Source of the DNA: Pseudomonas putida
GTDB lineage: Bacteria; Pseudomonadota; Gammaproteobacteria; Pseudomonadales; Pseudomonadaceae
Reading direction: 5' to 3'
Assembly (NCBI RefSeq): GCF_025905425.1
Contig: NZ_CP109603.1
Coordinates: forward strand, 1,772,001 to 1,836,000
Length of the DNA stretch: 64,000 nucleotides
The first letter of the stretch is position 1; every line of letters starts with the position of its first letter. A program made the position numbers and the translations under genes. Of the stretch, positions 4,654 through 63,036 are shown in pieces. Under the pieces are notes generated by a model. The model was not told the DNA's origin and did no database searches. It saw only the letters and a list, made by a program, of their open reading frames with translations.

Positions 4654-6186
4654 ATGAGAATCCACGTCACCTTCATCGACCGCGTCGGCATCACCCAGGA
4701 AATCCTGGCACTGCTGGGGGCGCGCAACCTCAACCTGGACGCGGTGGAAATGATCCCGCCCAACGTCTACATCGACGCCCCGGCGCTGTCACAGGCGGTG
4801 CTGGACGAACTCCACGATGCGCTGTTGCGGGTGGTCGGTGTGCGGGCAGTCGAGCTGGTCGACTTTCTGCCTGGCCATCGCCGGCGCCTGCAATTGGAGG
4901 CGCTGCTGGCGGCGATGAGTGACCCGGTGCTGGCGGTGGACCCAGGCGGCCATGTGCTGCTGGCCAACCCCACCCTGGTCAGCCTCATCGGCCGCGAGCC
5001 GGCCGGTGAGCCGCTGTCGCGGTTGTTTGCCGAGGCGGACCTGGCCCAGACCTTGATCGACAAGGGCTTTCGCCTGCCCATGTGCGAGGTGGGCTTCCAG
5101 GGCCAGGCGCTGTTGCTGGAAGCCACGCCCATCAGCGGCGGTGCCGATGGCCTGGTGGGCGGCCTGCTCACCCTCTACCCGCCAAGCCGCATCGGCGAGC
5201 GCCTGGCGTCGTTGCTGCACGACCATACCGAAGGGCTGGAGGGGCTGCTCGGTGACTCTATAGCGCTCAAGGAACTCAAGGTGCGCCTGCACAAGGTGGC
5301 AGGCCTTGAGGCGCCACTGCTGATCCAGGGCGAGACGGGCACGGGCAAGGAGCTGGTGGCTCGTGCCTGCCACGCCCTCAGTGCCCGGCGCGATGCGTCG
5401 TTCCTGGCCCTTAACTGCGCCGCGCTGCCCGAGAGCCTGGCCGAAAGCGAACTGTTCGGCTACGCCGCCGGCGCCTTCACCGGCGCCCAGCGCGGCGGCA
5501 AACCAGGCCTGTTGGAGCTGGGCGATGGCGGTACGGTGTTCCTCGATGAAGTGGGGGAGATGTCGCCTTACCTGCAGGCCAAGCTGTTGCGTTTTCTCAA
5601 TGACGGCAGCTTCCGGCGGGTCGGTGGTGGCGGTGAGGTGCGGGTGAATGTACGGGTGGTCTGTGCGACCCACCGCAACCTTGAAAGCATGGTGGTCGAA
5701 GGCAGCTTTCGCGAAGACCTCTACTACCGCCTCAACGTGCTCAATCTGAAGGTGCCGCCCTTGCGCGAGCGCGGCAAGGACATCCTGCTGCTGGCCGAGT
5801 ACTTCCTGCGCCAGGCCTGCGCGCAGATACAGCGCTCGCCCTGCCGGCTGGCGCTGGCTACCCATCCGCTGCTGCTGGGCAACCGCTGGGCGGGCAACGT
5901 TCGCCAGTTGCAGAACGTGATTTTCCGCGCCGCCGCCATCAGCGAAGGGGAGGTGATCGACTGCGATGACCTGGAGCTGGCCGGCACCGCCTTGAGCAGC
6001 CAGCAGCCTGACGCCCAGGAGGTCACCAGCCTGGAAGCCGCCATGCAGGGGTTCGAAAAGACCCTGCTGGAGAAGCTGTATGCGACTTACCCCTCGACCC
6101 GGCAATTGGCCGCGCGCCTGCAGACCTCGCACACGGCTATCGGCCAGCGCTTGCGCAAATACGGCATCGCCACCCGGCCCTCGTAG
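4654..6186 (+). CDS. gcsR: TyrR/GcsR-type sigma-54 enhancer-binding activator
   Basis: This 510-residue cytoplasmic activator has an N-terminal ACT-like ligand domain (about 1-70), a PAS-like segment (about 78-180), and a sigma-54 AAA+ domain (about 195-430) with Walker A GETGTGKE from residue 227 and an intact GAFTGA loop (273-278) for contact with sigma-54. A Fis-type helix-turn-helix sits at the C-terminus (QLAARLQTSHTAIGQRLRKYG). In P. aeruginosa the TyrR-like GcsR, sited next to the glycine-cleavage operon, turns it on in response to glycine; position and domains fit that protein rather than PhhR, the phenylalanine regulator. The ATG at 4654 is chosen because the longer frame runs back through cycA. 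The perfect sigma-54 promoters before cycA and gcvH support the assignment. Confidence 0.85.
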   Translation: MRIHVTFIDRVGITQEILALLGARNLNLDAVEMIPPNVYIDAPALSQAVLDELHDALLRVVGVRAVELVDFLPGHRRRLQLEALLAAMSDPVLAVDPGGHVLLANPTLVSLIGREPAGEPLSRLFAEADLAQTLIDKGFRLPMCEVGFQGQALLLEATPISGGADGLVGGLLTLYPPSRIGERLASLLHDHTEGLEGLLGDSIALKELKVRLHKVAGLEAPLLIQGETGTGKELVARACHALSARRDASFLALNCAALPESLAESELFGYAAGAFTGAQRGGKPGLLELGDGGTVFLDEVGEMSPYLQAKLLRFLNDGSFRRVGGGGEVRVNVRVVCATHRNLESMVVEGSFREDLYYRLNVLNLKVPPLRERGKDILLLAEYFLRQACAQIQRSPCRLALATHPLLLGNRWAGNVRQLQNVIFRAAAISEGEVIDCDDLELAGTALSSQQPDAQEVTSLEAAMQGFEKTLLEKLYATYPSTRQLAARLQTSHTAIGQRLRKYGIATRPS

Positions 6187-6205
6187 TCAGCCTGGTGCCA
6201 ATACG

Positions 6206-6235
6206 TTCCACTGGAGTGAATGCACTCCAGTGGAA
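6206..6235. promoter_or_regulatory. Perfect 13-bp inverted repeat between gcsR and gcvH
   Basis: TTCCACTGGAGTG (6206-6218) and CACTCCAGTGGAA (6223-6235) are exact complements around an AATG spacer. No T-run follows, so it is not a classical terminator. It lies about 140-170 bases before the gcvH sigma-54 promoter, a normal distance for an enhancer site. The ACTGGAGTG core recurs upstream of the cycA promoter. It could also act as the gcsR 3'-end hairpin. Confidence 0.55.
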
Positions 6236-6375
6236 GGTGATCCCCGCATTCATTGGTGCGCCGCTTCAGGCGTATCTACCCGCGTGATGCGGTGGAGCTG
6301 TTTCGTTCCGCCAACACAGAGTGAACATGGCGCTTTAAATGGTTCAAGTCATTGAAATATAAGGGTTTGTTTAAG

Positions 6376-6392
6376 TTGGCATTACCCTTGCT
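6376..6392 (+). promoter_or_regulatory. Sigma-54 promoter of the glycine-cleavage operon
   Basis: TTGGCATTACCCTTGCT carries GG at 6378-6379 and GC at 6390-6391 separated by 10 bases, a near-ideal -24/-12 element. It is 55 bases before the gcvH ATG. CGTTCC half-sites at 6204-6209 and 6304-6309 resemble the right half of the site reported for GcsR in P. aeruginosa and are possible contacts. Confidence 0.85.
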
Positions 6393-53544: not shown

Positions 53545-54042
53545 ATGAAGGTCGCTTTCAAGACCGTTGCTGCATTGGCCCTGACAATTGCTGGTGCCGG
53601 GAGCGTTCATGCACAGGATGTTGTGCGCCATAGCGCAGGCAGTTTCCCCATTTCGGCAGCTGTGGAAGTTCCTGCAGGCAAGACCGTCGTTTATCTGAGC
53701 GGCTCTGTTCCGTCGGCTATCCACCCTGAGGCAGCCAAGGATTCGCTGGAATCCTACGGTGATACCAAAGCACAAACCATCAATGTGCTCGAGAACATCC
53801 AGAAGCAGCTCAAAGACCTCGGTCTGGGCCTGAAGGATGTGGTGAAGATGCAGGTGTTCCTGGTAGGCGGCCCGGAGAACGGCGGCAAGATGGACTTCGA
53901 CGGCTTCATGGCCGGCTACACCCAGTTCTTCGGCCCAGACGCCAAGCAGCCAGTTCTGCCTGCACGTTCCGCGTTCCAGATCGCAGGCTTGGCTCACCCA
54001 GCCTGGCGCGTAGAGATCGAAGTCACCGCAGTTCGTCCCTGA
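53545..54042 (+). CDS. Exported RidA/YjgF-family imine deaminase
   Basis: This 165-residue protein has a signal peptide (LALTIAGAGSVHA, cleavage before QDVV), then a RidA domain: VVYLSGSVPS, NVLENIQKQLKDLGLGLKDVVKMQVFL and PARSAFQIAGL with the carboxylate-binding Arg of the family. Cytoplasmic RidA hydrolyses reactive enamines and imines; an exported form is rare and makes sense beside an exported amine-oxidising flavoprotein. AGGAG precedes the ATG. It may be trimeric, as others are. Confidence 0.9.
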   Translation: MKVAFKTVAALALTIAGAGSVHAQDVVRHSAGSFPISAAVEVPAGKTVVYLSGSVPSAIHPEAAKDSLESYGDTKAQTINVLENIQKQLKDLGLGLKDVVKMQVFLVGGPENGGKMDFDGFMAGYTQFFGPDAKQPVLPARSAFQIAGLAHPAWRVEIEVTAVRP

Positions 54043-54049
54043 AAGGGAT

Positions 54050-54066
54050 GCCTGCTGAAAGCAGGC
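54050..54066. terminator. Hairpin between the convergent RidA and MFS genes
   Basis: GCCTGCT (54050-54056) and AGCAGGC (54060-54066) form a short stem with a GAA loop right after the RidA stop. There is no T-run. It may serve as a bidirectional stop between the convergent genes. Confidence 0.45.
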
Positions 54067-54099
54067 GCGGCCTAGCCACGCCTGCCTGCGTACCTTGCC

Positions 54100-55401
54100 T
54101 CAGCGGGGGTTGACCACCGCGGCCGAGGTACGTAGCACCAGCAGGGCGCCCAAGGCGATGACCAGCGACAACAGGTACAGCGCCAGGCTGGCGCTTTGCG
54201 TGTTATCACGCATCCAGCCGATGAGGTAGGGCGCGACGAACGCCGCAACGCTGCCCAGCGAGCTGATCAGCGCCAGCCCCGGCGCCAGTATCGGCCCGGC
54301 CAGGTAGGCCGGTGGCAATTGCCAGAACATCGGCAGCGCGCTGCTGGCGCCCATGCCGGCAATGGCCAGCCCGGCCATGACCAGTAGCGGTGACTGCGGC
54401 TGCAGGCCGGTCAGGGTCAAGCCCAGCGCGCACATCAGAATCGGCACGCACAGGTGCCAGCGCCGCTCCTTGCGGTGGTCGGACGAGCGCCCCACGGCAA
54501 TCATGAACACGCACCCCGCCAGATAAGGCACGGCACTGAGCAGGCCGACCTGGCTATCGTGGGCAATGCCCGAGCCGTGGATCAGCGCCGGCATCCAGAA
54601 CGCCAGGGTGTTGACCGCCAGCATGACCGCGAAATAGATCGCCACCAGCAGCCAGACCTGGCCATTGGTGAAGATGCCGCGCCAGGAACTGATCTGTTTG
54701 CGCGCTTCTTCGCCGGCCAGCGTTTGCCGCAGGGCGTGCTTCTGCTCGTCGCTGAGCCAGCGCGCGTCTTCGATCCGGTCGTCCAGCCGTGCCAGTATCA
54801 CCAGCCCCAGGGCCACGACCGGCAGGCCTTCGATCAGGAACATCCACTGCCAGCCGCGCAGCCCGGCGGTGCCTTGCATGTGTTCGAGGATCCAGCCCGA
54901 CACCGGGCCGCCGACCACGCCAGCCATGGGTACGGCCAGGGTGAACAGGGCGGTGATCGACGCCCTGCGCCCGGCTGGGAACCAGCGGTAGAGGTAGACC
55001 AGAATCCCTGGGAAGAAACCAGCTTCGGCCACGCCCAGGCCGAACCGCAGGGCGTAGAACCCATGCGCGCTGTCAATCAGCAGCATGGCGCTGGAGAGCA
55101 ACCCCCAGGTCACCATCATCAGGGCGATCCAGCGCCGTGGGCCGAGTTTGTCGAGCACCAGGTTGGCCGGTACGCCGAACATCGCGTAGGCCACGAAGAA
55201 CAGCCCGGCACCCAGGCCATACACGGTGTCGGAGAATTGCAGGTCGTTGCTCATCTGCAGCTTGGCGAAGCCGATGTTGATGCGGTCCAGGTGGGCGAAT
55301 ACGTAGCTGACCAGCAGCAGCGGCATGATTCGCCAGCTGACCTGGCGGTGGGTACTGGCAATGCTCTGCGCGTGGTGCAGAGACGCGAGGGTCTGGCTCA
55401 T
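54100..55401 (-). CDS. MFS transporter, anion:cation symporter type
   Basis: This 433-residue, 12-helix inner-membrane importer is of the ACS branch (tartrate, 4-hydroxyphenylacetate, vanillate-type acids). DRINIGFAKLQM, YALRFGLGVAEAGFFPGILVYLYRWFPAGRRA and GWQWMFLIEGLPVV are ACS motifs. The ATG at 55401 has GAGG 8 bases upstream; the longer frame is the porin's end in another phase. As the last gene behind the Rieske oxygenase, reductase and porin, it probably brings their aromatic acid substrate across the inner membrane. Confidence 0.9.
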   Translation of the reverse strand: MSQTLASLHHAQSIASTHRQVSWRIMPLLLVSYVFAHLDRINIGFAKLQMSNDLQFSDTVYGLGAGLFFVAYAMFGVPANLVLDKLGPRRWIALMMVTWGLLSSAMLLIDSAHGFYALRFGLGVAEAGFFPGILVYLYRWFPAGRRASITALFTLAVPMAGVVGGPVSGWILEHMQGTAGLRGWQWMFLIEGLPVVALGLVILARLDDRIEDARWLSDEQKHALRQTLAGEEARKQISSWRGIFTNGQVWLLVAIYFAVMLAVNTLAFWMPALIHGSGIAHDSQVGLLSAVPYLAGCVFMIAVGRSSDHRKERRWHLCVPILMCALGLTLTGLQPQSPLLVMAGLAIAGMGASSALPMFWQLPPAYLAGPILAPGLALISSLGSVAAFVAPYLIGWMRDNTQSASLALYLLSLVIALGALLVLRTSAAVVNPR

Positions 55402-55433
55402 GAAATGACCTCGAAGGGCAGGTGTAAGGGGGT

Positions 55434-56684
55434 TCACCAGAGTTTCAGGGTGTAGCTGACGATCAGCCGGTTCTCGTCCATGTCGCTGGCGTAGCTGGAG
55501 CGGTAGGCCGCGTTGCGCCAACGCACGCCCAAGCCCTGGAAGTAGCCGGCCTGGATGACGTAGGCGAGGTCGGTGTCGCGCTCCCACTCACGGCCGTCGG
55601 CAGCGCTGGTGCGGATCTCGTCGCCGCGCACATAGCGGGTCATGAAGGTCAGCCCGGGTAGCCCGAGGGCGGCGAAGTTGTAGTCATAGCGAGCCTGCCA
55701 GGACACCTCGCCGGCGTTGGTGAAGGTGCCGATCGTGACCAGGTTGGCGGTGTAGGGCGGGGTGTAGCCGTTCAGGGTGGGGAAGGCGTCGTTGCCGTAC
55801 ATGCGCTGGTAGCCCACGCCGAACTTGTGCGCGCCCACGCTGAGGGTGCTCATCATGTTGAAATTGCGGTTGTCGACGCTGCCGGCCTTGGCGGTGCCGG
55901 CGCTGTTGCTGTCGAAGTAACGCAGGTCGCTGAGCAGCGACATCCCCGACGCCAATGGCAGCGTGTGCACCAGGCCGTAGAAGTCTTGCCGGTAGACGTC
56001 GTGCAGTTCGCCGCGAAAGACGCTGGCGATCAAGCCGTGGCCCACGTCGTAGCTGGCCCCCAGTACGTCGAAGGCGCCGCTGTCGAAATCGGCGCTGCGC
56101 CCGGCCAGGTACATGCGGTCGCTGCCCGACGACTCACGGGTACGTGAGCGCCAGAGTTGCCCGGCGGTCAAGGTCAGCCGTTCGATGTCCTGCGACTGCA
56201 GCAGCGCGCCGTCGAACGTCTGTGGCATCAGGCGCATGTCATCACGAAAGACCACGGGCAGGGTTGGGGTCAGGATGCCGACATCGAGGCGGGTCTTTGA
56301 CACCCGCAGCTTGCCGGTGACCCCCATGTGGCTGAAGTTGTCCACCGGCCTGCCTGATTGCGAGCCGAAAGGCAGCGTGCCGTCGCCGCTGCGGCCACGT
56401 CCCGAGTCGAGCTTGACCCCCAGCAGGCCGAGATAGTCCACGCCGAACCCGACAGGCCCTTCGGTGAAGCCCGATTGCATGCGCAGCATGAAGGCTTGCG
56501 ACCAGTTGCCGACTTGCGAGGCCTTGGCACCACTCTGGCGAAAATCGCGGTTCTGGTAGAAATTGCGCAGCTCCAGGCTGCCCTGGCTGTCGCCAACGAA
56601 GTCGGCGCGGGCTGGCAGTGGCAAGGCCAATGCTGCCAGCAGCGCCAGGCGCAGGCAGGTGATACCCCGTTCAGGCTTGAACAT
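55434..56684 (-). CDS. OprD-family outer-membrane porin
   Basis: This 416-residue porin has a signal peptide (LALLAALALPLPARA), a DFVGDSQGSLELRNFYQNRDFR start typical of OprD/OpdK/VanP proteins and a C-terminal aromatic-ended beta strand (YTLKLW). Members of the OpdK (PhaK) branch admit aromatic and dicarboxylic acids. It is third in the order reductase, oxygenase, porin, transporter. Confidence 0.9.
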   Translation of the reverse strand: MFKPERGITCLRLALLAALALPLPARADFVGDSQGSLELRNFYQNRDFRQSGAKASQVGNWSQAFMLRMQSGFTEGPVGFGVDYLGLLGVKLDSGRGRSGDGTLPFGSQSGRPVDNFSHMGVTGKLRVSKTRLDVGILTPTLPVVFRDDMRLMPQTFDGALLQSQDIERLTLTAGQLWRSRTRESSGSDRMYLAGRSADFDSGAFDVLGASYDVGHGLIASVFRGELHDVYRQDFYGLVHTLPLASGMSLLSDLRYFDSNSAGTAKAGSVDNRNFNMMSTLSVGAHKFGVGYQRMYGNDAFPTLNGYTPPYTANLVTIGTFTNAGEVSWQARYDYNFAALGLPGLTFMTRYVRGDEIRTSAADGREWERDTDLAYVIQAGYFQGLGVRWRNAAYRSSYASDMDENRLIVSYTLKLW

Positions 56685-56730
56685 GTGATGTCCCTTTTAT
56701 TGTTGTTATGGACGGCTGCCGGCGCTGGCT

Positions 56731-57840
56731 TCAGCCGACCTTGCGGCTGGCGTGCAGGCGTTCGGCATCGGCACGTTTCTTCAGGTAGATGCGGGTGGCG
56801 ACGGCAGGCGCGTCACTGGCTACGGAGATTTCGTAGTGGTGGTCGTCGCGGTCGTCGAGCGCGGCTTCCAGTGCCCCGAGGCCCTCGACGTCTTCGTTGA
56901 AGGCGGCGAACAGCTGCTCGTGCATGTACTCGCCCAGGGCTTCATCGTGCTGGGCGAAGTCGCGGCCATGGACGATGAAGTAGTGCAGGCTGTTGGCGGT
57001 TTCCGGGGTCAGGATGTGCGCGGTACGAATGTGAAACTGCTGGCGTTGTTCCACCGGTTGCGCACTGTCGTAGAAGGCCACGCTGACCCGGTGCAGGGCC
57101 GGGGAGAGAAACTCCGAGGTGGCAATGCGTGCTGCACTGGCGCAGCCTTCCAGGCCTGTGGTCTTGCCCCAGACCGGCGACAGGGTGGTGGGTACCACTT
57201 CGCGGATCAGGGTGTAGTGGCCTTCCTTGAGGTCCAGTTTGTACGGTGCGCTGGCGTAGTCCGGAGTGCCGATGGTGTTGGCGTGGAGGAAGCTCAGGTG
57301 GGTCAGGTCCATGAGGTTTTCATGCAGGCTGACGTAGTTGCCCGGGTGATGGAAGTACCCGGAGGTACAGGCCCAGGCCGGGTCGTCGATCCACGCCTGA
57401 TGGGGGATCTGCGCCGCATCGGCAAGGGCTTCCTCGCCCAGCCAGATCCACAGCAACGGCCCCTGGCGCACCAGGGGATAGCGGCGTACGCCAATGCCAC
57501 GCGGGCAGTTTTTCTGGGAGGGCACCTCGGTCAGGTCGCCGGAGGCGTCGTAGCGGAAGCCGTGGTAGCCACAGACGATGGTGTCGCCTTGCAGATGGCT
57601 GCGCGAAAGGGGGAAGGAGCGGTGCGCGCAGCGGTCTTCCAGGGCGACCGGTTCGCCGGCTTGAGTGCGGTACATCACCACGCGCCGGTCGAGCAGGCGC
57701 CGGGCCAACAGGTGCCGGCCGACTTCATCGTCAAAGGCGGCGACGTACCACTCGTTGTAGATGAACGGGGTTTCGCGGTTGGCCATCGGTTCGCTGGCCT
57801 TGCGGGCATGGGCGATGAGGTTGCTGGTTGGCAGTGACAT
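56731..57840 (-). CDS. Rieske oxygenase alpha subunit (VanA/demethylase-type)
   Basis: This 369-residue iron-sulfur oxygenase has a Rieske cluster from C71-x-H73 and C90-x-x-H93 (CAHRSF, CGYHGF). The mononuclear iron site is in ENLMDLTHLSFLH, with H181 and H186. Single-chain oxygenases of this shape (VanA, dicamba O-demethylase, toluenesulfonate monooxygenase) remove methyl groups from aromatic ethers or hydroxylate aromatic acids. AAGGAG lies 8 bases before the ATG. With its VanB-like reductase, porin and MFS carrier it forms a full uptake-and-attack operon; the exact substrate is not shown. Confidence 0.92.
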   Translation of the reverse strand: MSLPTSNLIAHARKASEPMANRETPFIYNEWYVAAFDDEVGRHLLARRLLDRRVVMYRTQAGEPVALEDRCAHRSFPLSRSHLQGDTIVCGYHGFRYDASGDLTEVPSQKNCPRGIGVRRYPLVRQGPLLWIWLGEEALADAAQIPHQAWIDDPAWACTSGYFHHPGNYVSLHENLMDLTHLSFLHANTIGTPDYASAPYKLDLKEGHYTLIREVVPTTLSPVWGKTTGLEGCASAARIATSEFLSPALHRVSVAFYDSAQPVEQRQQFHIRTAHILTPETANSLHYFIVHGRDFAQHDEALGEYMHEQLFAAFNEDVEGLGALEAALDDRDDHHYEISVASDAPAVATRIYLKKRADAERLHASRKVG

Positions 57841-57873
57841 GTTTGGAGGCTCCTTAAAGCAGGGTGAGGCGGT

Positions 57874-58824
57874 TCAGAGGTCCAGCACCAGGGTGTCGCC
57901 GAGGGCGCGCGAGACACAGATCATCAGGCTGCGGCCTTCGGCCTTGTCGGCGTCCGAGAGGATCAGGTCGCGGTGGTCCGGTACGCCTGCGCAAATGCGG
58001 GTTTCGCAACTGCCGCAAATGCCCGCCCGGCACGAAAACGGCAGCTCGATGCCGTGGGCCTCAAGGGCTTCGAGGATGCTTTGCTCGGGCGCGACCCAGA
58101 GGCTGCGGTCGCTACGGTTCAGGTGCACGGTGAAGCCGCTGTCGCCCTCGGTGCTGGTCGGCGCGGCGCTGAAGCGCTCGATGTGCAGGCGTTCAGCGCG
58201 TGGCCCGGCAGCGGCTTGCAGGGCGTCGAGCATCGGCGCCGGCCCGCAGGCGTACAGGTGCTCGTCGTCGTGCAGGGTGTCGAGCAGCCCAGCGTTGTCC
58301 AGATGGCCGCCCGCTTCGTCGTTGAAGTGCAGGTGCACCCGGGCAGGGTCGAGTTCGCGCAGGGTTTCGTAGAACGCGGCGCGCTGGCGATTGCGCGCGC
58401 TGTACACCAACCGCCAGTCTTTGTCGTGCGCCTGGCACCAGCGCAGCATCGCCAGTATCGGCGTAATGCCGATGCCGCCCGCCACCAGGCAGTAACGCTG
58501 CAGGCTTTCATCCAGCGCGAAGTGGTTGCGCGGAAGGCTGCAGGCGAGGGTGTCGCCCAGGCGCAGTTGCTGGTGCAAAAAGCGCGACCCGCCACGGCTG
58601 TCTGGCGCCAGGCCCACGCCGATCAGGTAGCGGTCGCGTTCATGCGGGGCGTTGAGCAGTGAGTAATGGCGTGGCAGGTCGCCGGCGACGAGGATTTCCA
58701 GGTGCGCACCCGCGCTGAAGGGGGGGAGTGCCCGGCCATCGGCGGCACGCAGTTCGATCAGTACGACGCCCTTGGCTTCGGCGGCGTAGCGCGTGACGCG
58801 CAGGGCGAGGGGGTGGAGGTCCAT
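57874..58824 (-). CDS. Oxygenase reductase, FNR plus C-terminal 2Fe-2S (VanB-type)
   Basis: This 316-residue phthalate-dioxygenase-reductase type protein carries electrons from NAD(P)H to the Rieske oxygenase. It has a flavin domain (RHYSLLNAP), an NAD domain (LVAGGIGITPILAML, YACGPAPML) and a C-terminal plant-type ferredoxin with cysteines C265, C270, C273 and C303. It is first in the operon, 33 bases ahead of the oxygenase. Confidence 0.92.
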   Translation of the reverse strand: MDLHPLALRVTRYAAEAKGVVLIELRAADGRALPPFSAGAHLEILVAGDLPRHYSLLNAPHERDRYLIGVGLAPDSRGGSRFLHQQLRLGDTLACSLPRNHFALDESLQRYCLVAGGIGITPILAMLRWCQAHDKDWRLVYSARNRQRAAFYETLRELDPARVHLHFNDEAGGHLDNAGLLDTLHDDEHLYACGPAPMLDALQAAAGPRAERLHIERFSAAPTSTEGDSGFTVHLNRSDRSLWVAPEQSILEALEAHGIELPFSCRAGICGSCETRICAGVPDHRDLILSDADKAEGRSLMICVSRALGDTLVLDL

Positions 58825-58998: not shown

Positions 58999-59763
58999 AT
59001 GATTCGTCTCAGCACCCCACAGGCATCGACCTTGCCCGCGCAAATCCGCCCGTTCAGCGACTTGACCTGCACGTTGGGCACGCCCGGTTTTCCCGGCGCG
59101 TTGCTGGATTGCCTGGGCCAATGGGCGGCGTGTGAGCATTTCTCTGTGTTGCGCATGGATGGCGCCCGGCCGCAGCTACTGGCGGCCGGCACGCGCCATG
59201 CGGATGCTAACTTGGTGCTGCGCTGCGGCCAGGCGTATATCGAGCACTACCATCGCTATGACCCCCTGTTCGAACCCTTGAAGGAAGCGCCTGGGCAAGT
59301 CGGCCACTTGCTAGCCCAGGACATCCGTCATGGCCCTTACCGCGAGGCGATCTACCAGCGCAACGGCATGATCGAGCGCTTGTCCAGCGTGTACCTGGAC
59401 GAGCAGGCACGCCCGGTGCAGTTCAACCTGTATCGGCATCACGACCAGGGTTTTTTCAACGACCATGAACTGCAGATGTGCGAAGCGCTCAGCCCGGCGT
59501 TGTTGCAACTCTTGCGTGGGCACCTGGCGTTGAAAGGTTTGAACCCTGTGAAGGATCCTCAGCAGCAGTTGCTTCAGCGCTGCCCCGAGCTCACCACGCA
59601 AGAGTTGAACATCTGTGCCCGCCTGCTGCAGGGCATGACCCACGCGGGTATCGCCGCAGACTTGGGCATTAAAGAGAGCACCGTGAAAACCTACCGTAAC
59701 CGGGCGTTCGACCGGCTTGGCATTCACTTTCGCAGTCAGCTGTTTGCCTTGTTCTCGGGGTAG
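58999..59763 (+). CDS. LuxR-family regulator
   Basis: This 254-residue protein has a C-terminal LuxR helix-turn-helix (LTTQELNICARLLQGMTHAG, IAADLGIKESTVKTYRNRAF) and an N-terminal domain without the acyl-homoserine-lactone pocket signature. It lies divergent from the oxygenase operon (174 bases between starts) and probably controls it. Its 3' end overlaps the convergent ferredoxin-M24 fusion gene by 28 bases. Confidence 0.88.
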   Translation: MIRLSTPQASTLPAQIRPFSDLTCTLGTPGFPGALLDCLGQWAACEHFSVLRMDGARPQLLAAGTRHADANLVLRCGQAYIEHYHRYDPLFEPLKEAPGQVGHLLAQDIRHGPYREAIYQRNGMIERLSSVYLDEQARPVQFNLYRHHDQGFFNDHELQMCEALSPALLQLLRGHLALKGLNPVKDPQQQLLQRCPELTTQELNICARLLQGMTHAGIAADLGIKESTVKTYRNRAFDRLGIHFRSQLFALFSG

Positions 59764-61442
59764 GGGTAGGGCGCCGGGCTGGCCTGACCAACCAGAATGT
59801 CCTCAAAAAACGCCCCGACCGGCTCCGTGGGGTGGCACAGCTGAATCTCCAGCACCCAGACCATCTCGCTCGGCACGATGTCCAGGTCGGCCAGTTTGTC
59901 CTGCCCGAACAGGGCATGGGGGAAGTCGGCGATGCGATGCCCGGCCAGGTTGCGCTCCAACTGCCAGCCTTTGGCGAGGGCGCTGCGTTCGGCGACGTCG
60001 TACAGCTCACGGCCGGTCAGCCCCGCGCACCAGGCTTGGCGCGTTTCTTCGAACACCTCGTGCAGGGCCTTGACGCAGGCGTGGTACAGCGGGTGCTCGC
60101 CAAACACGAAGGTGTCGCCATAGTCGCCTTCATAGCCATCCCACACCGGGCCAAGGTCGACCACTGCAATATCGCTGGCGCGCAGTTGGCGTTGCGGGTC
60201 GATGCCTTGGCGAGGGGTACGTACGGTGTCGTCGCCAAAGCGGATATAGGTTGGGTGCCAGGTGTGCGATGCGCCCATCGCCTGCAGCGTTTGGCTTGCC
60301 ATCTGCAACGCTTCGGCGGTGGTCATGCCGACCCTTAGTTGGCTGGCGATGGCCGCCAGGGCCCGTACTGACTGCTCGCGGGCGGCGAGCATGCCGTCCA
60401 GCGAGTAGCGCGGGCCGACTCTTTCCAGCACCGGGTCCAGCCCTTCGAGCATTGAGGCAGCCGGCAGCGATGCGCCGCTGGCAACGAACGCCTCGGCGAC
60501 AAAACGATGAGCCTGCGCGCCCGCAGCCAGGCACAGCTCGCGGGCCTGGCTGATCATCGCGCTGTTGCCGCAGGCATAGACCTGGGTATCGGCCCAGCGG
60601 TGGGCATGTGTCAGCGCAACCTGCTGCACGCGGGCTTGGGCAGACAGTACTCGGTGCCAGCGAAAGTGTGGATGGGCAAGGCTGGCCTGGTCCAGGAACG
60701 CGCCGTCATAAAAATCGGCCGGCGATGAGCCGCCCCAATACAGCGTGACCGGGGCAGTGCCAGACAGGGCCGTCAGCAATAACGGCTTGATGCCGGCATA
60801 GCCGGTGCCGGTGGCGAACAGCACGACCGGGCGTTCACCTTCGTGCTGCCAGGTGCAGGCGCCCACTGGCCCTTCGAGTTGCAGCGCGTCACCTACCTGC
60901 AGGGCGGGCAGGACGCAGTCGGTAAACAGCCCGCCGCTGACCTTGCGCATATGAAACACCAAGCGCCCCTGGTCTTGCGCTGGCAGGTTGGCGATGGAGA
61001 AACAGCGGCTGTCGCCATTGTCGAGGCAGAACCTGAGGTACTGACCGGCGCGTACCTCGACAGGTTGGGTGGGCTGCAGCACCAGCTCTGTGATATCGAC
61101 GCTCAGGGCGCGTTGGCTCAGGACATGGGCGGTGATTTCCAGCGTTGGCGTGTCCAGTGACCAGCCGGGGATTTCCAGGCGCATATCGCTGCAGGCATGG
61201 CTTTGGCACAGCAGCATCTCGTTGGCGGCCAGTGGGTAGCAAGGGGCGGGCATGTCTTCGCTGCGCTGCTTGTCCCGGTACTGGCCCGACACCACCTTGA
61301 CCTTGCAAGACCCGCAGGCGCCACGGCGACACGAGAAGGGCACCGACAGGCCGCTGGCGAGCATGGCATCGAGCAGCAAGCCTTCTGCGGCTTCAACGCG
61401 CTTGCCCGAGGGCGACAGTTCAATGACATGGCGGTTTTGCAT
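59736..61442 (-). CDS. Ferredoxin-FNR reductase fused to an M24 metallopeptidase
   Basis: This 568-residue protein joins three units. Residues 1-90 are a plant-type ferredoxin with C38, C43, C46 and C79 (SCRRGACGSC, then LCQSHAC). Residues 95-320 are an FAD/NAD(P) reductase (RCFSIAN, LFATGTGYAGIKPLL, YACGNSAMI). Residues 330-568 are a pita-bread M24 domain with a full metal set: D429 in VVDLGP, D440 in GDYGDT, H502 in GHRIAD, E532 in LEIQL and E547 in FFEDIL. Reductase and peptidase fusions are not a form I know. The GTG at 61448 is possible, but the ATG at 61442 has GAGG upstream. It is divergent from a MocR regulator and next to the Rieske operon, whose oxygenase it could feed. Alternatively, M24 acts as a hydrolase on the product. 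Confidence 0.85.
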   Translation of the reverse strand: MQNRHVIELSPSGKRVEAAEGLLLDAMLASGLSVPFSCRRGACGSCKVKVVSGQYRDKQRSEDMPAPCYPLAANEMLLCQSHACSDMRLEIPGWSLDTPTLEITAHVLSQRALSVDITELVLQPTQPVEVRAGQYLRFCLDNGDSRCFSIANLPAQDQGRLVFHMRKVSGGLFTDCVLPALQVGDALQLEGPVGACTWQHEGERPVVLFATGTGYAGIKPLLLTALSGTAPVTLYWGGSSPADFYDGAFLDQASLAHPHFRWHRVLSAQARVQQVALTHAHRWADTQVYACGNSAMISQARELCLAAGAQAHRFVAEAFVASGASLPAASMLEGLDPVLERVGPRYSLDGMLAAREQSVRALAAIASQLRVGMTTAEALQMASQTLQAMGASHTWHPTYIRFGDDTVRTPRQGIDPQRQLRASDIAVVDLGPVWDGYEGDYGDTFVFGEHPLYHACVKALHEVFEETRQAWCAGLTGRELYDVAERSALAKGWQLERNLAGHRIADFPHALFGQDKLADLDIVPSEMVWVLEIQLCHPTEPVGAFFEDILVGQASPAPYPYPENKANS

Positions 61443-61530
61443 ATACACCTCAGGGCTGAATGGGGGCTAGAGAGGCCTGATTGTTGCGTTAGACTAGGAC
61501 CATAAAAACCTCCAGTTCTGGATAATTCAC

Positions 61531-63036
61531 ATGGTCCAGCTTCGCAAATGGCGGCCGCTGCTAAAGCTCGACGGGGCTCAGCCGCAGGCGTCTTACCGAA
61601 AAATCGTCGAGGGCCTGGTGACTGCAATCGTCGAGGGCCGCCTGCGCCCCGGCACGTTGCTGCCCGGCACCCGGGAAATGGCGCAACTGCTCGATGTCAA
61701 TCGCAAGACGGTGATCCTCGCTTACGAAGAGGCGGTCACCAAAGGCTGGCTGGAGAGCGTGCAGCGCCGGGGCACCTTCGTCAGTACCCGGCTCGCGGCG
61801 GGCACGCTGCCCGCCCACAGCGCGCTGCCGCCGTTTGCCCTGGCGCTGAACGAGGCGCCTGCAGTTCCCTACTTCACCAACAGCGAGCAGGTGACCGCGC
61901 TGCAACATCGGCCGGGCGCGCTGTTTTTCGATAACGGCGCCTGTGACCACCGCCTGCTGCCCCAGGCTGTGCTGCACCGCTATTACCGCAAGGCCTTGCG
62001 CACCAGTTTCACCACCAACACCGTGCGCCATGGCTGCGAAAGCAGCAGCCAGTACCTGCGCAGTGCACTGGCCGACATGCTGCGCCACAACCGCAGCCTG
62101 AACGTGGGGCCCGAGCATATCTGCCTGACTCAAGGCGTGCAGATGTCGCTGTACCTGACGGCCAGCGCCTTGCTCAAACCGGGTGATGTGGTGCTGGTTG
62201 AGCGCCTGAGCTACCCGCCGGCGTGGGAGATTTTCCGCCAGCTGGGTGCGCGACTGGTCACCGTCGACCTCGACGAGGAAGGCTGTCGGGTCGATCAGAT
62301 CGACGCGCTGTGCCGGCTGCACGACGTTCGCATGATGTATGTCACCCCCCATCACCAGTTCCCCACCACGGTCAGCCTGCATGCCGCCCGCCGGCAGCAG
62401 TTGCTGGAGTTGGCGAGGCTGCATGATTTTTGCGTGATCGAGGAAGACTACGACCATGAGTACCACTTTGCCGGGCGCCCCTATTTGCCCCTGGCCAGCG
62501 ACCGCTCGCAACGCCATGTGATCTACATCGGCTCGCTGTCCAAGTCATTGGGCAGCACCTTCCGTTGCAGCTTTATCGTGGCGCCGCCAAATGTGATCGA
62601 GGTGCTTGAGCGCACGGCGGTGCTGACCCTGGGGCAGGGCGATGCGGTGATGCAGCGGATGCTGGCCGACCTGATCAATGACGGCGAGTTGAAAAAGCAC
62701 CTGCGCCGGGTTTCCACGGAGTACCGTCGGCGTCGGGAGACCCTGTTGAGTTGCCTGCGCGATGCCTTTGGCGAGCAGATAACGGTGCAGGAACCAGAAG
62801 GCGGGTTGGCGCTTTGGGTGAAGTTTGCCGATTCGATCGATGTCGACCAGTTGGCGGCCAAGGCGCTGGAACTGGACTTGGTGGTGCGCGGCGGTCGCCA
62901 GTTTTCACCGTTTGGCCAGCGCGAGAATGCCTTGCGCCTTGGGTTTGCTTCGCTGGATGTGGATGAAATTCGTTGCGCCACCCAGCGTCTGGCGCAGGGG
63001 GTCGTGGGCGGCCTTTGTAGAGAAAATCAGATTTAA
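61531..63036 (+). CDS. MocR/PdxR-type regulator (GntR helix-turn-helix plus aminotransferase domain)
   Basis: This 501-residue protein has a GntR winged helix (about 20-85: LRPGTLLPGTREMAQLLDVNRKTV) and a fold-type I aminotransferase-like domain with the PLP lysine K338 in GSLSKSLG. MocR proteins sense PLP or amino compounds and commonly control the neighbouring divergent gene. The start is 89 bases from the ferredoxin-M24 ATG, so that fusion gene is its likely target. Confidence 0.9.
   Translation: MVQLRKWRPLLKLDGAQPQASYRKIVEGLVTAIVEGRLRPGTLLPGTREMAQLLDVNRKTVILAYEEAVTKGWLESVQRRGTFVSTRLAAGTLPAHSALPPFALALNEAPAVPYFTNSEQVTALQHRPGALFFDNGACDHRLLPQAVLHRYYRKALRTSFTTNTVRHGCESSSQYLRSALADMLRHNRSLNVGPEHICLTQGVQMSLYLTASALLKPGDVVLVERLSYPPAWEIFRQLGARLVTVDLDEEGCRVDQIDALCRLHDVRMMYVTPHHQFPTTVSLHAARRQQLLELARLHDFCVIEEDYDHEYHFAGRPYLPLASDRSQRHVIYIGSLSKSLGSTFRCSFIVAPPNVIEVLERTAVLTLGQGDAVMQRMLADLINDGELKKHLRRVSTEYRRRRETLLSCLRDAFGEQITVQEPEGGLALWVKFADSIDVDQLAAKALELDLVVRGGRQFSPFGQRENALRLGFASLDVDEIRCATQRLAQGVVGGLCRENQI

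Follow-up and report, generated by a model that had tools for sequence, protein, structure and literature searches.

The window, by which we mean the whole stretch of 64,000 nucleotides of Pseudomonas putida DNA analysed here, contains on its reverse strand a gene (59736..61442) for a protein of 568 residues, counted from a conserved ATG at 61442. Read from a GTG at 61448, the same gene (59736-61448) is a single, stop-free open frame of 570 residues, and it is to this longer version that the residue numbers below refer. Four Pfam domains, each exceeding its cut-off in hmmscan and all encoded on the reverse strand, follow one another along the chain: a Fer2 [2Fe-2S] domain (residues 11-85; 61194..61418) with Cys 40, 45, 48, and 81 and the cluster motif CX4CX2C; an FAD-binding domain (FAD_binding_6, residues 114-199; 60852..61109) with an R148/F150/S151 motif; an NAD-binding domain (NAD_binding_1, residues 211-303; 60540..60818) with GTGxAG and CGN motifs; and an M24-fold domain (Peptidase_M24, residues 352-553; 59790..60395) with the metal ligands D431, D442, H504, E534, and E549. 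The ligands were assigned by alignment with MetAP/APP profiles together with the ligand patterns of this fold. The reductase half is joined to the M24 domain by a linker (residues 322-335; 60444..60485, reverse strand) that contains no stop, is of low confidence in the AF2 model, and lies within the least conserved of four stretches compared, where the mean identity to the window is 46% in 172 Pseudomonas rows and 14% in 21 Burkholderiales rows, as against 85% and 53% for the M24 domain in the same rows. The AF2 model leaves the relative placement of the domains unfixed (pTM 0.59), and the cluster-to-metal distance cannot be read from it.

A LuxR gene (58999-59763) runs convergently towards the fusion gene and shares its last 28 bp with it (59736-59763, the 3' ends of both). 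The stretch 53545-58824 holds genes for a VanA-like Rieske protein, an FNR-Fer2 reductase, an OprD porin, and an MFS transporter. Genes for a Rid protein and a LuxR regulator stand at the edges of this compact and probably catabolic cluster. A MocR regulator (61531..63036, forward strand) is encoded divergently from the fusion gene, and between the two lie operator-like boxes (61496..61527, no strand assigned) that are conserved in alignment and that may serve as its binding sites.

The earlier note on this DNA had described a ferredoxin-flavoreductase and an M24 peptidase sharing one chain, and had proposed to search for the architecture and to look for a missed stop near 60450. The description is borne out on both counts: no in-frame stop is present near 60450 and many relatives are fused as well. 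A search of about 5.8 billion proteins returned 286 homologues at E ≤ 0.001, and among the homologues listed 117 of 120 have the same four Pfam domains; a profile built from eight fusions gave 268 matches at E ≤ 1e-40. A hidden stop or a sequencing error at the junction of reductase and M24 domain is thereby ruled out. The idea that all relatives might carry the two halves as separate genes fails too, as most relatives are fused, although separate genes do exist in a few (L168, L172, and L176, described below).

Residue conservation was scored on 193 of 194 aligned rows, those covering at least 90% of the protein (172 Pseudomonas, 21 Burkholderiales). The cluster cysteines are kept in 193, 193, 193, and 192 of these rows, the residues of the FAD and NAD motifs in 191-193, and the five metal ligands, which the earlier note had rightly found complete, in all 193. 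Since cofactor and metal residues are kept in at least 191 of the 193 relatives, both halves look to have been selected. The fusion is real and conserved and is no artefact.

A scan of genome contigs located 79 loci in Pseudomonas, Variovorax, Achromobacter, Herbaspirillum, Roseateles, Comamonas, and Paraburkholderia, and in one record labelled Pantoea, the species labels being those of the records themselves; the fused loci are mostly from Pseudomonas or Achromobacter and are not independent samples. The fusion has a patchy distribution in the genus, where 21 of 149 genomes carry it (that of the window among them), and 29 plasmid records in PLSDB match it, none of them reaching 80% coverage. 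Two protein entries labelled as a nematode (P0147, Ditylenchus destructor) and a fungus (P0189, Rhizopus arrhizus) match this bacterial family, and these, like the entry labelled Pantoea sp. Ap-967, are probably mislabelled or contaminated. Two of the contig loci look damaged. Pseudomonas sp. K2I15, which also carries a full fusion (L012), has a partial M24 piece (L084, 8001-8495) at 83% identity to the M24 domain of the fusion, apparently a duplicate that has decayed. The Variovorax sp. E3 locus (L085, 8001-9706) matches the fusion over residues 1-553; its longest M24-bearing frame found is 223 residues, and the gene is probably frame-disrupted.

The reductase half is most like the reductases of oxygenases (5ogx, 7c3a, 4wqm, and 1krh), and it has the domain order and the cofactor motifs of the Fer2-FAD-NAD oxygenase-reductase type. 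It scores under the curated NCBIfam cut-offs (for BenC, 110.4 against 430). Reductases of this type normally serve oxygenases.

The other half has the M24 fold over residues 352-553 and scores far below the methionine aminopeptidase models (for type I, TIGR00500, 32.8 bits where the cut-off is 171.35); the earlier note's "peptidase" is at most a putative label. To our knowledge, M24 enzymes of known activity are hydrolases or, in the case of DddP, a lyase. In Escherichia coli MetAP the upstream substrate-binding histidine is His79; in a profile alignment with 1o0x the stretch of this histidine falls in a gap, and H398 may or may not replace it. Across a set of 123 M24 domains (38 fused, 3 Fer2-M24, and 82 alone), W397, H398, R403, D431, E440, D442, E534, and E549 are the same in every fused row and in all 82 of the unfused ones. 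H504, R505, and H511 are likewise invariant in both, the rows having been picked by the pattern GHRxx[any]FPH, so that H504, R505, F509, P510, and H511 are invariant by choice. In a second alignment, whose 54 sequences were mostly chosen without use of the pattern, W397, H398, R403, D431, E440, D442, H504, R505, H511, E534, and E549 are again invariant. That fused and unfused M24 domains have these active-site residues in common is the strongest point against a chemistry specific to the fusion.

In a tree of the 123 M24 domains, from which three loci lacking the GHRxx[D/A]FPH form (L114-L116) were left out, the 38 fused and 3 Fer2-M24 rows group together in a single clade of 41 with support of 100/98. 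The order of events inside this clade, that is, whether the Fer2-M24 proteins lost the FNR part or never had it, is not settled by the tree (89/69). In an FNR tree, 15 fusions form one clade (99/99) and three separate reductases another (96/95), and a common origin of the two is left unsettled (53/65).

The M24 subfamily occurs in three arrangements other than the full fusion. Three sequences (P0145, P0147, and L157) consist of Fer2 and M24 with no FAD or NAD domain; L157, of 374 residues, keeps a divergent MocR. At L168, L172, and L176 an FNR-Fer2 reductase gene adjoins the M24 gene with gaps of 7, 43, and 0 bp, respectively. Whereas the fusion is ordered Fer2-FAD-NAD with a CX4CX2C cluster, these separate reductases are ordered FAD-NAD-Fer2 with a CX5CX2C cluster (by Pfam for L168 and L172, by eye for L176). 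Each of the three loci has a nearby MocR that is 40-42% identical to the window's; in L168 it sits on the far side of the M24 gene, without a divergent arrangement with the reductase, and in L172 (2314-3782) the MocR matches lie in two frames and the gene may be frame-disrupted. Also nearby are an amino-acid permease in L168, a branched-chain-amino-acid type ABC transporter in L176, and, 1.6 kb away in L172, a class I glutamine amidotransferase-like gene. The trio of separate genes is rare, being found at E ≤ 1e-60 in 1 of 321 genomes of the class, the query's own, and in 2 of 58 genomes of one genus, one of them again the query's own. The M24 protein alone is common: a Fer2-M24 query matches 95 of 398 genomes of one Burkholderiaceae sample (E ≤ 1e-35), and in nearly every case the match is limited to the M24 part.

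The MocR regulator of the window has a GntR helix-turn-helix and an aminotransferase-like domain with an SLSK motif, the PLP-binding lysine of which is present at that column in 11 of 11 aligned MocRs. It passes the curated PdxR family narrowly (NF052282, 329.4 bits against 320), and no PLP biosynthesis gene was named among the six neighbours scanned. With this protein as the tblastn query, 73 of 81 loci (the 79 of the contig scan plus L157 and L158) show a MocR next to the fusion at E ≤ 1e-20, and with a Burkholderiales MocR as query 79 of 81 give a match at E ≤ 1e-3, the exceptions being L081 and the fragment L084. The conserved unit is therefore the fusion gene with its divergent MocR regulator. 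The earlier note had seen the MocR opposite the fusion, which stands; it had missed that the pairing is conserved and that unfused and FNR-less versions exist. The regulators fall into two sets. The first comprises the window's MocR and those of the separate-gene loci L168 and L176 (40-41% identical to it), and the second those of the Burkholderiales fusions, of Fer2-M24, and of one M24-only genus (41-59% identical across kinds). Identity between the sets is 27-32%, so that the fusion is accompanied by a MocR in both cases but not by regulators of a single orthologous line. Read on the fusion strand, the boxes at 61496..61527 consist of an inverted TCCA box followed by two direct TGG boxes, and they are conserved in the window and 24 loci out of 55 tried, the other loci having failed a length or motif filter. 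An arrangement of one inverted and two direct repeats is reported as common for MocR regulators in PMC5320631; the words "M24" and "peptidase" are absent from the main text of that article.

The earlier note had also placed the fusion beside a Rieske oxygenase operon. This holds for the window, but not in the sense of a meaningful partner, as the association is confined to the window and L009 (P. capeferrum WCS358). The cluster at 53545-58824 is whole in only 1 of 81 loci, L009, and at E ≤ 1e-20 the LuxR, FNR-Fer2 reductase, Rieske, MFS, and Rid genes are each found in that one locus and OprD in 3. As a conserved partner the Rieske operon is ruled out. In 75 of 77 fused loci (a set that leaves out L009, which has the Rieske gene, and the fragment L084) one Rieske and two reductase queries gave no match besides the fusion itself; the other two, L068 and L081, have a Rieske match in their flanks. 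These counts of redox neighbours are raw, without a random-locus control, and refer to the three query proteins, with P450s, flavin monooxygenases, and others outside their scope. All neighbour counts are by tblastn; gene calling gave some wrong-frame ORFs in GC-rich loci. Inspection by eye of the ORF lists of nine fused loci revealed no shared pathway beside the fusion, the surroundings varying by lineage. A class III aminotransferase cluster of L081 recurs in L010 and L080, and an ORF cluster taken on visual inspection for an ABC-transporter ATPase is found in L010, L012, and L061; such three-locus recurrences may be chance. The gene neighbours of the fusion, differing as they do between lineages, gave no lead to its substrate.

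At the level of sequence, the architecture, its conservation, the single fused clade, the MocR pairing, and the relatives with a separate reductase or with Fer2 alone are established. We tentatively favor the reading that the locus encodes a conserved, MocR-controlled, one-protein enzyme system in which electrons from NAD(P)H reach the M24 metal site in cis, although we would not go so far as to call this probable; the argument for transfer in cis is one by exclusion and parsimony. The MocR would sense an amino-containing compound and switch the fusion gene on. NAD(P)H would reduce the FAD and the FAD the [2Fe-2S] cluster, which would in turn pass electrons in cis to a dinuclear M24 metal site, probably of iron. 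The M24 domain would then convert an amino-acid- or gamma-glutamyl-like small molecule, the electrons being either used with O2 or needed to keep the metal site reduced and active. Within this reading, true redox catalysis by the M24 domain is conceivable though doubtful, and an iron enzyme that is simply kept reduced is improbable. Stated in full, the former would make the M24 domain both terminal acceptor and redox catalyst of a self-sufficient NAD(P)H-driven oxygenase or oxidase, with a pita-bread fold, a di-iron-like D-D-H-E-E site, and an amino-acid-like substrate sensed by the MocR, a proposal that we regard as possible and rather unlikely.

Transfer in cis is favored by the combination of an oxygenase-type electron chain, no conserved partner among the kinds searched, and a version of the M24 protein with ferredoxin only. 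A ferredoxin by itself merely passes electrons on, and the M24 domain is what it is attached to in Fer2-M24, which counts for M24 as the acceptor. The loci with a separate reductase, M24, and MocR (L168, L172, and L176) count for the same reading, as does the single clade of fused rows with Fer2-M24 included, while a MocR in 79 of 81 loci and the conserved intergenic boxes argue for a MocR-controlled unit. For iron at the metal site there is a precedent in DddP, a DMSP lyase and so a case of non-peptidase chemistry on an M24-type site, which holds two metal ions, primarily iron, in its M24-like site according to PMC4108388; DddP does not appear among the 50 rows listed in our comparisons, which carries no weight. 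Against redox chemistry stand the known M24 activities, hydrolytic or, in DddP, lytic, and the fact that unfused M24 proteins with identical active-site residues are common and that, of 29 such loci fetched (among them the broken piece L113), 22 are free of matches to the three redox queries, the other 7 having a match to a reductase or a Rieske protein. The unfixed domain placement in the AF2 model and the unsettled FNR tree count against the cis reading. So does the regulator: a MocR is present in 7 of the 29 unfused loci (3 with a reductase, 4 of one genus) and in none of the other 22, and so does not characterise the M24 subfamily as a whole.

A serious alternative, somewhat less likely than transfer in cis, is that the protein is bifunctional, the reductase half feeding an oxygenase encoded elsewhere and the M24 half hydrolysing a substrate or product of the same pathway, so that the fusion merely links two steps. 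The usual service of such reductases to oxygenases and the nearest structures would fit this, as would an M24 active site that is unchanged with or without a redox partner and the Rieske matches near four fusions (L009, the window, L068, and L081). Rieske orthologues, 53-89% identical, lie near the unfused M24 genes of L164, L166, and L170, and dioxygenase alpha and beta genes stand beside a plasmid reductase in L160. The Burkholderiaceae Rieske proteins, however, are matched in the window's genome at 31% at best, which is not close, the 75 fused loci gave no further match to the three queries, and Fer2-M24 retains its ferredoxin where FAD and NAD domains are absent. Two further observations come from the unfused loci. 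At L113 (about 5650-6384) the first part of a Rieske oxygenase leads, with a change of frame, into the latter half of an M24 gene, which looks like a broken recombination product, and in L170 (4011-5657) a frame of 548 residues joins a LysR-type regulator, so judged by eye, to the M24 protein and may be a second kind of fusion or a missing stop.

It is less likely, and on the whole improbable, that the [2Fe-2S] cluster and flavin act as a sensor or gate on an M24 hydrolase, with no electrons entering the product or the metal site during turnover. M24-only relatives with the same site imply a basal chemistry that proceeds without a dedicated reductase, and some of them stand near gamma-glutamyl genes. 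In four unfused loci of one genus a MocR gene adjoins the M24 gene, with a gamma-glutamyltranspeptidase nearby in all three scanned (L173, L174, and L178), and the M24-only genes of the Pseudomonas loci L108 and L109 each lie next to a GGACT gene. These neighbours suggest gamma-glutamyl compounds as substrates, a lead that comes from unfused relatives of two genera only. A complete NAD(P)H-FAD chain would nevertheless be costly for sensing, and its cofactor motifs are retained in Pseudomonas and Burkholderiales alike. A neutral or artefactual fusion, arising by read-through, assembly error, or gene decay, would find examples in the damaged L085 and the M24 piece L084 among the 79 database loci, but is refuted already by the relatives, given the numbers of homologues, four-domain proteins, and profile matches and the catalytic residues invariant across 193 rows, and its probability is negligible.

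Returning to transfer in cis, the recurrent pairing of this M24 domain with a fused Fer2-FAD-NAD module, with a fused Fer2 alone, or with a separate FNR-Fer2 gene would, if the redox reading is true, be a reflection of M24 chemistry. If electrons do reach the M24 site, a fold thought to be hydrolytic (lytic in DddP) would extend to redox reactions, and a conserved subfamily would be wrongly labelled "peptidase"; an M24 enzyme with redox catalysis would be categorically new. Even if none reach it, the one-gene unit with its MocR has a substrate open to growth and induction tests, and the natural series of M24 alone, Fer2-M24, reductase plus M24, and full fusion makes the role of the electrons directly testable. 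The protein occurs in many soil Pseudomonas and Burkholderiales. As far as our literature search reached, the Fer2-FAD-NAD-M24 architecture has no published description, in keeping with the earlier note, whose author knew of none. Names in the source records are inconsistent (M24 family metallopeptidase, NAD(P)H dependent flavin oxidoreductase family protein, CDP-4-dehydro-6-deoxyglucose reductase), an inconsistency that suggests a protein not yet described in its entirety. The conserved fusion and its MocR pairing suggest an enzyme not described before, one that may carry out redox chemistry at a metal site of the peptidase type.

The known systems that come nearest each resemble one part of this unit. 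Structurally, the reductase half is closest to BenC (1krh), T4moF (4wqm), GcoB (5ogx), and the carbazole dioxygenase reductase (7c3a), all of them oxygenase reductases. These are separate chains that serve a partner oxygenase, whereas the fusion chain ends in an M24 domain and has no conserved partner gene among the kinds searched. The window's MocR shares with GabR, TauR, and PdxR, as presented in PMC5320631, the GntR and aminotransferase domains, the PLP lysine, and the boxes of one inverted plus two direct repeats, and differs in that the gene opposite is an M24 fusion. DddP is likened to the fusion only as a precedent for iron, being a lyase that has no electron-transfer domain in the account of PMC4108388. 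With methionine aminopeptidase, prolidase, and aminopeptidase P the M24 domain has in common the pita-bread fold, the five metal ligands, and a second histidine 7 residues past the histidine ligand. It differs from the M24 metallopeptidases in its low identity to them (14-21% in structural alignments), in being joined to a reductase, and in a signature of its own: W397-H398, R403, E440-G-D442, and G-H504-R505-xx-D-F-P-H511.
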